Under the pieces are notes generated by a model that ran no database searches, had not been told where the DNA came from, and was given only the letters and a program-made list of their open reading frames with translations. Positions 32,707 through 37,606 of a stretch of 64,000 bases of DNA are shown here, piece after piece (the stretch's first letter is position 1; every line of letters begins with the position of its first letter). The position numbers and the translations under genes were made by a program. This DNA is from Halogeometricum limi (lineage in GTDB: Archaea; Halobacteriota; Halobacteria; Halobacteriales; Haloferacaceae): NCBI RefSeq assembly GCF_900115785.1, contig NZ_FOYS01000001.1, positions 186,001 through 250,000 of the forward strand, given 5' to 3'.

Positions 32707-32859
32707 GGTCTCCGTCTTCGACCGTGAGGGCGCACGCCCGAACGGGCTGAGGAGCGACCGTCGATTTCTCTCTTCTCTCTCGCCCGTCGCCGAAGCGGTT
32801 CCGAAACCGTGCCGCGTGGTAACTCGACTCTTATGGTGCTGGCGAACCAACACTCTCGT

Positions 32860-33252
32860 ATGTCCACTCGCCTCGACAGCACCGAATCCGGCGACGTCGC
32901 CACCGGCTTGGACCTCTCGTCGCTCACGACGCTGCATCGCGTCGGTATCGCCCTCGCCGCCCTCTCGGGCGTCGTCCACCTCGTCCTCGGTATCGCGTCG
33001 CTCCCGTCGGCGTTCGGTCTCTCCTTCCTCGTCGCTGCGGCGGGGTTCGCCGTTGGTATCGTCCTCGTCGCGTGGAACGTCCGGCGGCGACTCGTCTACC
33101 AGGTGGGGATTCCGTTCGTCCTCGGACAGATAGCCATCTTCGGCGTCCTCTGGGTGCAAGGGGCGACTGACCTCTCCGCCGTCGCCGCCGTCGACAAACT
33201 CGCGCAACTCGTCCTCGTCGGCGTCCTCGTCACCCTCCTCAGACGAGAGTGA
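32860..33252 (+). CDS. Four-helix membrane protein, unknown
   Basis: The 130-residue product has an acidic N-terminus of about 25 residues and four evenly spaced hydrophobic segments (near 28-48, 53-72, 78-98 and 105-124) with short loops, ending in RRE. It resembles small DoxX-like or DUF-class haloarchaeal membrane proteins, but no motif decides. ATG at 32860 is preferred over the in-frame GTG/ATG starts upstream because the extension is not conserved-looking. It is convergent with the CDP-alcohol phosphatidyltransferase gene, 18 bp away. Confidence 0.7.
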   Translation: MSTRLDSTESGDVATGLDLSSLTTLHRVGIALAALSGVVHLVLGIASLPSAFGLSFLVAAAGFAVGIVLVAWNVRRRLVYQVGIPFVLGQIAIFGVLWVQGATDLSAVAAVDKLAQLVLVGVLVTLLRRE

Positions 33253-33270: not shown

Positions 33271-34110
33271 TCACGGAAGCGGTCGTTCGCGCCGTCCGGT
33301 GACGACGAACCAGTCGACGAGGAAGTTCCCGAGGAACGGGAGCATCGTCACCGTCGCCAGCGTCCACCCGGCCCACTGCGGAACGACCGGCGCGAGGGCG
33401 ACGGCCGTCACGGCCATCTGAATGCCCGCGAGTGCGCGCCGCGTGTCACCGTGCGGTAACTCGAAGACCGGGAGGCCGCGGCGACGACGACGCCACGCGC
33501 CGAGGACGAACAGATACCGCGCCGCGCCGACGGCGAGGTACCACGGCGGGAGCGACCCGACCGAGACGCCGACGAGTGCGGCGACGAGGAGTCCGGCGGC
33601 GTCGACGTTCACGTCCAGGCGCGCACCGAGAAGCGTCGTCCGGTCGCGGAGGCGGGCTATCGCGCCGTCTACGGGGTCGGAGGCGGCGACGGCCCCGTAG
33701 AGGAGCGCCGGAAGCCAGCCGACGGGTGCGGGGACGACCAGTACCCCCGCGAGGAACGCGACGACGACGCCCCGACAGAGCGTCACCGCGTTGGCGGCGC
33801 CGAGCGAATCGAACACTCGGCCTCGTTCGCTCGGTCGGTTTCGATGGGCGTGGCGGCGCGCGAATCCGACGACGCCGAGGACGCCGGCGGCGGAGACGGC
33901 GCCCCACGGCGCACCGGCCCCGGGCGTCCGCCGTTCGGCCACGACTGCGACGAGGAACGTACAGACTGCGAAGGCGACGCCGAGCGTCGTCAGTTGTCGT
34001 CGCGTCCGTCGGGTCCCCGCGTCTCTCACGTCTCCTCGTAGGGTCCGCGGTGCCGTGAACGTTCTCCCGTACGACAGGTTTACCCCCTCACGCTCGTCAG
34101 TTCCGGGCAT
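33271..34110 (-). CDS. CDP-alcohol phosphatidyltransferase family protein
   Basis: These integral membrane enzymes displace CMP from a CDP-linked lipid or polyol with an alcohol. The 279-residue protein has the complete signature D145-x2-D-G-x2-A-R-x8-G-x3-D-x3-D170 (SDPVDGAIAR...GARLDVNVD), so it should be active, with six or so membrane helices around it. The acceptor (inositol phosphate, serine, glycerol phosphate or other) is not readable. It is divergent, with a 57-bp gap, from a four-gene operon for a dehydrogenase, a PTPS homologue, a glycosyltransferase and a methyltransferase, which suggests a joint role in a polar lipid or lipid-linked product; that link is inference. Confidence 0.85.
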   Translation of the reverse strand: MPGTDEREGVNLSYGRTFTAPRTLRGDVRDAGTRRTRRQLTTLGVAFAVCTFLVAVVAERRTPGAGAPWGAVSAAGVLGVVGFARRHAHRNRPSERGRVFDSLGAANAVTLCRGVVVAFLAGVLVVPAPVGWLPALLYGAVAASDPVDGAIARLRDRTTLLGARLDVNVDAAGLLVAALVGVSVGSLPPWYLAVGAARYLFVLGAWRRRRRGLPVFELPHGDTRRALAGIQMAVTAVALAPVVPQWAGWTLATVTMLPFLGNFLVDWFVVTGRRERPLP

Positions 34111-34167
34111 GTCACGACAGCGAGACGGCGGCGACCGGTCGGGGCCCGACGCCGCGGCCGTTCGACG

Positions 34168-35181
34168 ATGACCGACGCGCGCCGCGTTCGGTTTCTCGGC
34201 CCTCGAACCGTAGCGACCGAGACGGTACCGATGCCTCTCCCGGACGACGACGAAGTCCGCGTCGAGACGCGAGTCTCCGCTCTCAGCCCCGGCACGGAAC
34301 TCCTCGTCTACCGCGACTGCGTCCCCGGCGACGTTCCGCTCGACGCGACGATAGACGGCCTCGACGAACCGTTCTCGTACCCGCTCTCGTACGGCTACGC
34401 CGCCGTCGGCGTCGTCACCGCCGTCGGAGACGCCGTCGACGAGTCGTGGGTCGGACGCCGCGTCTTCGCGTTCCACCCCCACGCCAGCCACTTCTGCGTC
34501 TCGCCGGAGTCGCTCGTTCCGCTCCCCGCCGAGGTGTCCGACGAGGACGCGGCGATGCTGGCGACGGTCGAGACGGCGACGGGGTTCGCGATGGACGGCC
34601 GCCCCGGAATCGGCGAACGCGTCGCCGTCTTCGGACAGGGCGTCGTGGGCCTGCTCACCACCGCGCTTCTCTCGCAGTTCCCGCTCTCGCAACTGGTCAC
34701 GGTCGACTGCCACGACGCCCGGCGCGAGCGGTCGCGTTCGCTCGGGGCCGACGTCGTCTTCGGCGCGGACGTGGGAGAAGACGGACTGATGGACGCGTTG
34801 AGCGGGGACGGGCGGACGGACCTCACGTACGAACTGTCCGGCAATCCGGCGGCGCTCTCGGACGCTCTCGCGGTCACGGGCGACGACGGCCGCCTCGTCG
34901 TCGGGTCGTGGTACGGGGAGAAACCCGTCGCGCTGGACCTGGGCGGGCGATTCCACCGCAGCGGAATCGAGATTCGCTCCAGTCAGGTGAGCCGTCTCGC
35001 GCCCGAACACACCGGCCGCTGGGACAAGTCGCGGCGTCTGGACTACGCTCTCGACTCGCTCTCTCGGCTCTCGCCCTCCTCGCTCGTCACTCACCGATTC
35101 CCCGTCGAAGACGCCGCCGACGCCTACCGCCTCTTGGACCGCCGTCCGGAAGACGCCGTCCAGGTTCTTCTCACCTACTGA
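34168..35181 (+). CDS. MDR-type dehydrogenase lacking zinc ligands
   Basis: The 337-residue medium-chain dehydrogenase homologue has VSALSPGTELLVYR (a pattern shared with BchC-like and related MDR proteins), YGYAAVGVVTAVG in place of the GHE-containing zinc block, the Rossmann VAVFGQGVVGLLTT and VGSWYGEK. The usual catalytic Cys and GHE ligands are absent, so it may be an NAD(P)H-dependent reductase or dehydrogenase of a zinc-independent kind, despite being commonly named 'zinc-binding alcohol dehydrogenase'. It opens the operon, 48 bp before the PTPS-like gene. Start: ATG at 34168. Confidence 0.8.
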   Translation: MTDARRVRFLGPRTVATETVPMPLPDDDEVRVETRVSALSPGTELLVYRDCVPGDVPLDATIDGLDEPFSYPLSYGYAAVGVVTAVGDAVDESWVGRRVFAFHPHASHFCVSPESLVPLPAEVSDEDAAMLATVETATGFAMDGRPGIGERVAVFGQGVVGLLTTALLSQFPLSQLVTVDCHDARRERSRSLGADVVFGADVGEDGLMDALSGDGRTDLTYELSGNPAALSDALAVTGDDGRLVVGSWYGEKPVALDLGGRFHRSGIEIRSSQVSRLAPEHTGRWDKSRRLDYALDSLSRLSPSSLVTHRFPVEDAADAYRLLDRRPEDAVQVLLTY

Positions 35182-35229
35182 CCGCGGTTCCGACCGCGGT
35201 TTTAGGGTGTCTCCACCCGACGAACGGAC

Positions 35230-35607
35230 ATGTACTCCGTCACGGTCCGCAGACGACTCGTCGCACAGCACGCGCTGACGGTTCCGGACCCCGGTCCGGA
35301 GGGCGTCCCCCACTCGCACCGCTACCGCCTTGAAGTGACGCTCCGCGGCGAGACGCTGAACGAGTACGACTACCTCGTCGACATCGACGACGTGGAGGCG
35401 ACACTGGACGAAATCGAGCGTCGCTACACCGACGCGTTCTTGAACGACCTCCCGGAGTTCGAGGGGTACAACCCCAGCGTCGAACGGTTCGCGCGGGTCG
35501 TCCACGACAGACTCGTCGACGACGTGGACGCGCCGAACGTCGCGGAGGCGACGGTCACCGTCTGGGAGGACGACGACGCGAACGCCGCCTACACCGACGC
35601 GCACTGA
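35230..35607 (+). CDS. 6-pyruvoyl-tetrahydropterin synthase homologue
   Basis: The 125-residue protein has the PTPS/QueD T-fold layout. The three zinc histidines are recognisable: His14 (AQHALTV) and His28/His30 (PHSHRY, replacing the usual HGHNY). The catalytic Cys normally four residues before the first of the pair is Glu24 (PEGVPHSH), as described for PTPS-III-type enzymes. LVDIDDVEATLDEI, LPEFEGYNPSVERFA and the final VTVWEDD match the remaining conserved blocks. It may act on a pterin or 7,8-dihydroneopterin-like substrate by a different route from QueD. Its last A forms the overlap with the glycosyltransferase ATG at 35607. Confidence 0.85.
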   Translation: MYSVTVRRRLVAQHALTVPDPGPEGVPHSHRYRLEVTLRGETLNEYDYLVDIDDVEATLDEIERRYTDAFLNDLPEFEGYNPSVERFARVVHDRLVDDVDAPNVAEATVTVWEDDDANAAYTDAH

Positions 35608-36689
35608 TGCGCGTCGCCCTCGTCGTCCCCGGGTCGATAGAGACGCTCTCCGGCGGATTCGCCTACGACCGGGCCCTCGTCGCGTCGCTTCGCGAGGCGG
35701 GAGACACCGTCGAGGTGGTGTCTGTCCCGTGGCGGCGCTACCCGTTCGGCCTCGTGGACTCGCTTTCGCCGACGCCGCTCTCGCCGTCTCTCGCCGACGC
35801 CGACCTGATTCTCGCCGACGAACTGGCACATCCGGCGCTCCTCCGTCTCTCATCCGAGGCCCCCGTCGTCGCCCTCGTCCACCACCTCCGGTGCGACGAG
35901 AGCGAGGGCGTCCGCGCCGCACTCGCCGGAACGCTCGAACGACGGTTCCTCGCCCGGTGCGACGCGGCCGTCTGCACCAGTCACGCGACGGCGTCTTCCG
36001 TCGAGACGCGCGCGCCGACGCTCCCGACGCACGTCGCGCCGCCCGCGGACACGCAGTTCGACCCCGCGGTGACGCGTGCGTTCGTGAGCGAACGCGCCCG
36101 CGAAGACCCCTTCCGCGTCGCTTTCGTCGGCAACCTCGTCCCGAGAAAAGAGGTGTTGACGCTCCTCGACGCACTCGCCGGACTGGACGACTCGACGCCG
36201 TGGCGGGCCACGCTGGTCGGTCCACACCCGGATGACGTCTACCGACGACGGGTCGAACGCCGAATCCGGCGACGCGGTCTGGGAGAGTCGGTCCGACTCG
36301 CGGGCGAACTCCCGACCGAGGAGGTGGCCGCCGCCCTCCGAGAGAGTCACGTGTTCGCGATGCCGTCGTCGCACGAGGGGTTCGGAATCGCCTATCTGGA
36401 GGCGATGGGGTTCGGTCTCCCGGTCGTCGCCGCCGCGTCCGGCGGCGCGTCGGACCTCGTCGACGCCGAGACGGGGGTTCTCGTCGCTCCCGGCGACGCC
36501 GACGCGGTTCGAGACGCTCTCGACGGATTCGCGAGCGACCGGACTGCCCTCGAAGCGGCGGGTCACGCGGCACTCGCCCGGTACCGAGCGCACCCCTCGT
36601 GGGCCGAGACGACGCGCGAGTGTCGGGCGTTCCTCCGCGGCGTCGGCGAGGGCGCTCGCCGGAAGCAACCCGCGGAGGGGCACGCGTGA
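35607..36689 (+). CDS. GT4-type glycosyltransferase
   Basis: The 360-residue protein has two Rossmann-like domains typical of GT-B enzymes. The C-terminal half carries VAFVGNLVPRKEVLTLLDAL and the HEGFGIAYLEAMGFGLPVV block with the E-x7-E catalytic pair at Glu257 and Glu265. It should transfer a sugar from a nucleotide-sugar to an unknown acceptor. A 1-bp overlap with the PTPS-like gene upstream and a GTGA overlap with the methyltransferase downstream (36686-36689) bind it tightly into the operon. Confidence 0.9.
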   Translation: MRVALVVPGSIETLSGGFAYDRALVASLREAGDTVEVVSVPWRRYPFGLVDSLSPTPLSPSLADADLILADELAHPALLRLSSEAPVVALVHHLRCDESEGVRAALAGTLERRFLARCDAAVCTSHATASSVETRAPTLPTHVAPPADTQFDPAVTRAFVSERAREDPFRVAFVGNLVPRKEVLTLLDALAGLDDSTPWRATLVGPHPDDVYRRRVERRIRRRGLGESVRLAGELPTEEVAAALRESHVFAMPSSHEGFGIAYLEAMGFGLPVVAAASGGASDLVDAETGVLVAPGDADAVRDALDGFASDRTALEAAGHAALARYRAHPSWAETTRECRAFLRGVGEGARRKQPAEGHA

Positions 36690-37606
36690 AGGGGGATTTC
36701 CAGCGGTACCTCCGAGCGAAGGAGACGGTCGACGACCGAGCGTTCGACCCCCGCGTCCGTCGCGCCGTTCGCTCGGACCTCGCCGCACGTTCGGGGACGG
36801 TTCGTCTCCTCGACGCCGGGGCCGGAACCGGCCCCTTCCTCCGACGTCTCTTGACGTGGGACGACGTTCCCGACCTGACCTACGTCGCCGTCGACGCCGA
36901 CGAAACGAGTCTCGAACTGGGAGCTCGACTGGTCGAAGAACGCGCGCGAGAGCTCCGCTACTCGGTCGATACCGACGGTTCGACTCCGGAGAATCCGGCG
37001 TTCGACGTCCTCGGCGACACGCTGGCGACGCTCTCACTCCGGGGACGGAACGCCGTCGACGTGCGGTTCGTCCGCGCCGACGCCCTCGACGCGGCCGACG
37101 CAGGGGGATGGACCGTCGTCGTCGCGCAGGCGTTCGTCGACTTACTCGGCCCGGACGAGGTGGACCGACTGCTCGCCGGTCTCGTCTCGGGCGGGCGGTT
37201 CTACTTTCCCATCACGTTCGACGGCGGCACCGCGTTCGCCCCCGGACACGACGCCGACGACGCGGTTCTCGCGGCGTACCACGACACGATGCACGCCGGC
37301 GACAGGTGGGGTTCGCGGGCGGGTCGGAGACTCGAATCTCACCTGGATTCGCGCGGCGTCGACTACGTCGCGGGCGACAGCGATTGGCACGTCCGTCCGG
37401 TCGGGGGAGCCTACCCGGCCGACGAGGCGGCGTTCCTCCGGACCATCGTCGACACCGTCGGCGACGCGGTTCGCGGACACGTCGACGAGGTGGTTCGAGC
37501 GACGTGGCTCACCGCTCGGCGACGGCAACTCGCCGAGAGGACGCTCGAATACGTCGCGAAGAACAGAGACGTGAGCGGGCGGGTGGGTTCGACTACTCCT
37601 CGGTAG
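36686..37606 (+). CDS. Class I SAM-dependent methyltransferase
   Basis: The 306-residue protein contains the SAM-binding glycine loop LLDAGAGTGPFL (about residues 41-52), an acidic strand-2 end YVAVDADETSLEL and motif III-like GGRFYFPITFDGG. The N-terminus (MKGDFQRYLRAKETVDDRA) is a pattern common in small-molecule methyltransferases of archaea. The substrate is unknown; the operon suggests the product of the adjoining glycosyltransferase or pterin-like enzyme. Start GTG at 36686, overlapping the glycosyltransferase stop. Its 3' end overlaps the convergent sufU gene by 14 bp. Confidence 0.85.
   Translation: MKGDFQRYLRAKETVDDRAFDPRVRRAVRSDLAARSGTVRLLDAGAGTGPFLRRLLTWDDVPDLTYVAVDADETSLELGARLVEERARELRYSVDTDGSTPENPAFDVLGDTLATLSLRGRNAVDVRFVRADALDAADAGGWTVVVAQAFVDLLGPDEVDRLLAGLVSGGRFYFPITFDGGTAFAPGHDADDAVLAAYHDTMHAGDRWGSRAGRRLESHLDSRGVDYVAGDSDWHVRPVGGAYPADEAAFLRTIVDTVGDAVRGHVDEVVRATWLTARRRQLAERTLEYVAKNRDVSGRVGSTTPR

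Follow-up and report, generated by a model that had tools for sequence, protein, structure and literature searches.

A five-gene set in Halogeometricum limi

The window analysed here is a stretch of 64,000 nucleotides from Halogeometricum limi, to which the gene positions in this section refer. A CDP-alcohol phosphotransferase (CDPAT), a membrane protein, is encoded on the reverse strand at 33271..34110 (PF01066, E 2.8e-14). It is followed on the forward strand by four genes, which encode an MDR-superfamily oxidoreductase that resembles BchC and is without the usual zinc ligands (34168..35181; PF00107, E 1.5e-9), a tunnelling-fold protein of the PTPS/QueD family (35230..35607; PF01242, E 6e-27), a GT4-family glycosyltransferase (35607..36689; PF00534, E 2.7e-31), and a class I SAM-dependent methyltransferase (MT) with a GTG start (36686..37606). 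The five open reading frames and their families, originally proposed from the letters and translations, were borne out by Pfam, for the MT through weak general matches to Methyltransf_25/12. None of the five proteins reached an NCBIfam equivalog cutoff.

As had also been proposed, the CDPAT gene diverges from the MDR gene, and the shared gap is about 57 bp. The forward genes had been described as packed with overlaps. This was found for two of the three junctions, where PTPS and GT4 share 1 nt and GT4 and MT share 4 nt, whereas the MDR and PTPS genes are separated by 48 bp. A DUF7475 gene at 32809..33252 on the forward strand (PF24287, E 1.5e-6, just short of the cutoff) adjoins CDPAT in many relatives. 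It was present in 88 of 145 Halobacteria genomes, largely those that carry the PTPS homologue, and is probably a haloarchaeal accessory member of the set. The flanking RadA, NifU-type, and MscS genes were ordinary.

The genes co-occur across Halobacteria

We searched 145 Halobacteria genomes, spanning many genera and families, with a threshold of E < 1e-20 for PTPS orthologues. The PTPS homologue was found in 88 genomes, MDR in 86, MT in 87, and CDPAT in 84. The MDR-positive and MT-positive genome sets were nested entirely within the PTPS-positive set (Fisher p 1.6e-38, 5e-40, and 4e-40, values that ignore kinship). CDPAT was absent from a few PTPS-positive genomes (83 of the 88 have both), and all but one of its 84 carriers were PTPS-positive (p 5e-33, again ignoring kinship). 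In 79 of 86 genomes, MDR and PTPS were less than 6 kb apart. MT was unlinked to PTPS in 23 of 87 genomes, yet still co-occurred with it, and GT4 was absent beside PTPS in many haloarchaeal loci. The MDR gene was also found in five further genomes labelled just as belonging to the same phylum.

Several individual loci differed from this pattern. One PTPS orthologue (G077:C1:2721104) was the sole one in Halobacteria with neither MDR nor MT, and is perhaps a remnant. On a plasmid of Haloarcula marismortui ATCC 43049 (L101), PTPS is unannotated and the match begins at residue 18, so the gene may be truncated or may have been missed. On a plasmid of Natrarchaeobaculum sulfurireducens (L234), the genes after ArfA and MDR encode a hypothetical protein and an IS5 transposase, and the cluster may be broken. 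A fusion of a Gfo/Idh/MocA oxidoreductase and an aldo/keto reductase (family c7; L049:11448-13445 and relatives) adjoined the set in 17 of the 60 haloarchaeal loci, in many cases together with an uncharacterized protein that has no Pfam match (c8). We considered c8 as a homologue of a sulfatase-like protein of the bacterial loci described below and rejected this, as profiles detected no homology between them.

Counterparts in several bacterial phyla

A tblastn search identified relatives of the MDR protein (about 35%) on plasmids of Rhizobium, Methylosinus, Streptomyces, Thiodictyon, Microbacterium, and a Rhodobacteraceae strain. In the annotated neighbours, the order MDR-PTPS-GT4-MT was repeated around these genes, with CDPAT, RibD, RibA, or creatininase nearby. 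The Rhodobacteraceae plasmid locus has no GT4 beside PTPS, and no CDPAT was present within the stretch displayed for Methylosinus. We then compared an alignment of bacterial MDR proteins with 84,980 species genomes, which gave at least 594 confirmed MDR-encoding stretches.

The neighbourhood sample comprised 88 loci, 86 bacterial and two from haloarchaeal plasmids; 80 of them were genome loci representing the best MDR matches among the at least 594. These best 80 loci came mostly from Alphaproteobacteria (49), followed by Gammaproteobacteria (15), Betaproteobacteria (4), Actinomycetes (4), Acidobacteriota (3), Gemmatimonadota, and Fidelibacterota. In the 88 loci, MDR was found in 88, PTPS in 86, GT4 in 81, MT in 77, RibD_C in 66, CDPAT in 52, and RibA in 46. 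Further neighbours were LPG_synthase_TM (35), FkbM (33), cytochrome b561 (26), a sulfatase-like protein (24), creatininase (22), and GT2 (21). In three betaproteobacterial loci (L137, L138, and L151, from Polynucleobacter, a Methylopumilus MAG, and an Alcaligenaceae MAG), the MT match was located about 4.7 kb upstream on the opposite strand and not after GT4. The genome of Thiorhodococcus minor (G150, which contains locus L132) has nine PTPS-family matches, several of them adjacent.

Haloarchaeal profiles matched the bacterial cluster genes with median E values of 6e-67 for MDR, 3e-54 for GT4, 8e-28 for CDPAT, 3e-18 for MT, and 2e-15 for PTPS, and bacterial profiles recovered the haloarchaeal GT4, MT, and CDPAT. 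In the PTPS tree, haloarchaeal and bacterial members fell on one side of a branch that separates them from QueD (support 89, with long branches). In the MDR tree, a common haloarchaeal and bacterial group against other MDR proteins was not rejected (p-AU 0.62). The trees fit common descent of the haloarchaeal and bacterial sets but fall short of proof.

The original prediction had presented the neighbourhood as a recurrent haloarchaeal set. The nested co-occurrence in 145 genomes supports the recurrence, but the set is not confined to haloarchaea, as its gene order is kept across several bacterial phyla. Absence of co-occurrence beyond the lineage had been named beforehand as one outcome that would refute the claim. 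Co-occurrence was present across two domains, and the core claim, that of a recurrent and undescribed pathway without an assigned product, holds.

The PTPS homologue differs from characterized families

To characterize the PTPS homologue, we analyzed its residues and motifs. His14, His28, His30, and Glu24 are present in the window protein as predicted, and are kept in 48, 47, 48, and 47 of 48 haloarchaeal orthologues, respectively. In the alignments, haloarchaeal proteins have Glu and bacterial proteins Ala at the position of the catalytic Cys. Haloarchaea also retain the third zinc His, which is replaced by Ala in each of the 83 bacterial sequences. Neither group has the catalytic His of the DH pair, while the Glu near the C-terminus, which is pterin-binding, is retained. 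These residue states suggest that the chemistry differs from that of QueD and PTPS-II, and perhaps also between the two domains.

The protein shares the T-fold family with QueD/PTPS-I of the preQ0 pathway. It differs in having no catalytic Cys, in reading ExxxHSH where the QueD/PTPS-I motif is CxxxHGH, and in belonging to a separate clade; its TIGR03367 score was 50 bits against a cutoff of 89. A second PTPS-family gene in the H. limi genome, apart from the cluster (G000:C4:185619-185987), is probably the QueD of archaeosine synthesis. PTPS-III, the folate type, is defined by ExxHGH (PMC5041015), whereas in the window protein Glu24 is four residues ahead of the first His and the motif ends in HSH.

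The closest solved structure was SCO6650 (3d7j; sequence E 6.5e-8, fold TM 0.90). This protein retains a pterin-type pocket and, to our knowledge, has neither zinc nor PTPS activity. The PTPS of a Streptomyces fungicidicus cluster (L096) is 96% identical to SCO6650 over 104 residues. This cluster resembles the haloarchaeal set in its CDPAT and its MDR-PTPS-GT4-MT order, and adds creatininase and RibA. The motif is FGPAQxxHGA in bacteria, with Ala at the Cys position and the third zinc His lost, and PGPEGxxHSH with three His in haloarchaea. The window protein thus reads PGPEG in place of FGPAQ, which is given as the signature of PTPS-IV, the SCO6650 type, in PMC5445326. It shares with PTPS-IV a common gene order and the grouping against QueD, on the long branches noted above. 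The same paper places the FGPAQ PTPS (AGeNNT cluster 62) beside PF00925 and RibD_C (PF01872). It terms PF00925 FolE2, whereas the Pfam name is GTP cyclohydrolase II. In the section covered, no gene order, no MDR, GT4, MT, or CDPAT, no archaeal counterpart, and no pathway were proposed.

GTP-opening enzymes are linked to the set in both domains

In at least 32 of the 88 PTPS-positive haloarchaeal genomes, ArfA was located within 7 kb of PTPS, either upstream of MDR or downstream of MT (the position in genome G056 was taken from locus L045). The probability of this by chance is about 1e-53 when kinship is ignored. In 12 of the at least 32 genomes, a second ArfA was found elsewhere. The bacterial counterpart is RibA. 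It was present in 46 loci of the mostly bacterial sample of 88, and two or more GCH-II genes were counted in 14 of the 15 bacterial genomes checked. Most haloarchaeal loci have no cyclohydrolase in the cluster. There is none in the window, and the ArfA of H. limi is on a separate contig (C6), so in this species the pathway would depend on the housekeeping copy, which would also serve riboflavin synthesis.

The original prediction had proposed a pathway from the enzyme types but had overlooked the best clue to it, the GTP cyclohydrolase linked to the set, which is ArfA in haloarchaea and RibA in bacteria, together with a RibD-type reductase. Unrelated cyclohydrolases that catalyse the same type of reaction are found in this neighbourhood in both domains, which suggests that the pathway starts at the riboflavin-type opening of GTP. 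This start is well supported by context, and the cross-domain linkage is the strongest functional clue that we obtained.

A scan of one cluster RibD protein found the reductase domain but no deaminase domain. RibD_C was absent by profile search from all haloarchaeal loci examined, and creatininase from nearly all of them. Archaeal ArfC acts as a reductase on the non-deaminated compound, and the housekeeping RibD of bacteria on the deaminated one. Judging from these known pathways, this difference would explain why RibD_C is retained in the bacterial clusters and not in the haloarchaeal ones. In Sinorhizobium, a creatininase-family protein is the formamidase acting on the ring-opened ArfA-type product (PMC9478397). 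We considered a rule that creatininase accompanies RibA variants stopping at the formyl intermediate, and rejected it. Creatininase accompanied all five RibA proteins without the usual Tyr but also 12 of 41 with it (p 0.0045), and the five are all from Actinomycetes, so the association is confounded by phylogeny.

The linkage to ArfA, the first enzyme of riboflavin and F420 synthesis, raises the reading that the set serves one of these pathways itself, and PTPS-IV has been listed as F420-linked (unpublished), with PTPS-V as unclear (PMC5041015). However, CofG was found in 145 and ArfA in 141 of the 145 Halobacteria genomes, against about 88 for the cluster, and the 57 genomes without the set are still expected to make F420 and flavin. 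This distribution largely rules out a housekeeping role. We also know of no need for GT4, MT, or CDPAT in either pathway, and consider this reading very improbable. The predicted GTP-opening steps do resemble those of RibA/ArfA, RibD_C/ArfC, and the BrbF/ArfB-type formamidase. The cluster enzymes differ from the riboflavin enzymes in being extra copies clustered with glycosyl-, methyl-, and CDP-alcohol transferases, and in the missing deaminase domain of the scanned RibD.

Oxidoreductase and transferases of the set

The MDR protein had been predicted to lack zinc ligands, and in both haloarchaeal and bacterial members Ser indeed replaces the ligand Cys (S..S.GTE) and YGY replaces GHE. The window protein therefore does not carry the signature of zinc-dependent MDR alcohol dehydrogenases (catalytic zinc Cys and GHE). 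Its best NCBIfam match was BchC, at 65.8 bits against an equivalog cutoff of 291. The closest solved relatives of the GT4 protein include inositol-phosphate and phosphatidylinositol-mannosyl GT4 enzymes. The MT is an orphan with no NCBIfam match. Its structural model (pLDDT 91) matched general small-molecule methyltransferases only, with no hint of the acceptor in the fold search.

The CDPAT motif D..DG..AR(x8)G...D...D is intact in the window protein and in 34 of 40 haloarchaeal and 51 of 52 bacterial members, and the profile of the bacterial cluster CDPAT matched the window protein at 5.7e-35. The closest curated families were archaetidylinositol- and phosphatidylinositol-phosphate synthases, far under cutoff (26.6 bits against 180 for the archaetidylinositol phosphate synthase equivalog). 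The intact motif and these closest families make a lipid product plausible. The original proposal that the small molecule is joined to a lipid may hold, on the basis of the CDP-alcohol transferase family, its motif, and its co-occurrence with the set.

Another reading is that the genes form a surface-glycan or glycolipid operon, in which GT4, MT, and CDPAT would build a lipid-linked sugar, PTPS and MDR would modify the sugar, and the cyclohydrolase would be a mere neighbour. The likeness of GT4 to lipid-sugar enzymes and the bacterial neighbours LPG_synthase_TM, FkbM, sulfatase-like protein, and GT2 fit this reading, but it leaves unexplained why GTP cyclohydrolases of unrelated types should be linked repeatedly to the set in two domains, and why RibD_C should be linked as well. 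We regard it as distinctly unlikely.

A proposed pathway branching from GTP opening

On balance, we favor the reading that the cluster encodes a dedicated pathway branching off the riboflavin-type opening of GTP, with a fair margin left for error. In the first step, ArfA (GCH III) in haloarchaea or the extra RibA (GCH II) in bacteria would open GTP to a 6-(ribosylamino)pyrimidinone phosphate, and the creatininase-family formamidase would strip the formyl group where needed. This step is strongly supported by context. A reductase of the RibD_C/ArfC type may then act without deamination, in which case the 2-amino group would be retained and the core would be guanine- or pterin-like. The PTPS homologue lacks the catalytic Cys but retains the fold and the pterin-anchoring Glu, and could bind and remodel this core; the zinc-less MDR protein could perform a redox step on the core or its side chain. 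From their families, GT4 would glycosylate and MT would methylate the molecule. In the last and least certain step, CDPAT may form a phosphodiester, most simply with a CDP-activated lipid as donor of the phospholipid and a polyol or sugar as acceptor, which would give a membrane-anchored product.

The core may be either a ribityl-pyrimidine or a neopterin-type pterin, and the two routes would part after the first step. An alternative that takes the second route without a lipid is that the PTPS homologue closes the diaminopyrimidine to dihydroneopterin phosphate, as in the second half of the GTP cyclohydrolase I reaction, that RibD_C is a dihydropterin reductase, and that GT4, MT, and CDPAT yield charged, halopterin-like pterin glycosides. 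The retained pterin-binding Glu and the three zinc His of the haloarchaeal proteins are compatible with this. Charged pterins, phosphohalopterin and sulfohalopterin, were reportedly obtained from haloarchaea by Lin and White, and pterin glycosides occur in bacteria (PMC13259868). However, the linked cyclohydrolases are of the riboflavin type, and GCH I was annotated in none of the neighbourhoods examined. The third zinc His is lost in every one of the 83 bacterial members, and CDPAT is an integral membrane enzyme of lipid type. We therefore consider a glycosylated neopterin unlikely.

Within the favored reading of a dedicated branch from GTP opening, we tentatively suggest that the product is a membrane-anchored, glycosylated, and methylated pterin-like compound or ribityl-pyrimidine. 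This could represent a new kind of lipid-linked cofactor, redox- or light-active, that is common to bacteria and haloarchaea, with cytochrome b561 as a possible electron partner in some bacteria, although we hold this identity to be more doubtful than the pathway itself.

The literature covered, on the set, SCO6650/SCO6655, halopterins, HVO_1281-1283, and a Haloferax pterin lipid, yielded neither a product nor a description of the full set; subscription papers were outside its scope, and a prior description is possible. The set is kept as a unit in hundreds of bacterial species and in about 60% of the sampled Halobacteria. If the proposed pathway is correct, a widespread GTP-derived metabolite carrying sugar, methyl, and possibly lipid groups would have escaped notice, and the annotations '6-carboxytetrahydropterin synthase', 'zinc-binding alcohol dehydrogenase', and extra 'GTP cyclohydrolase II' would be misnomers for many genes.
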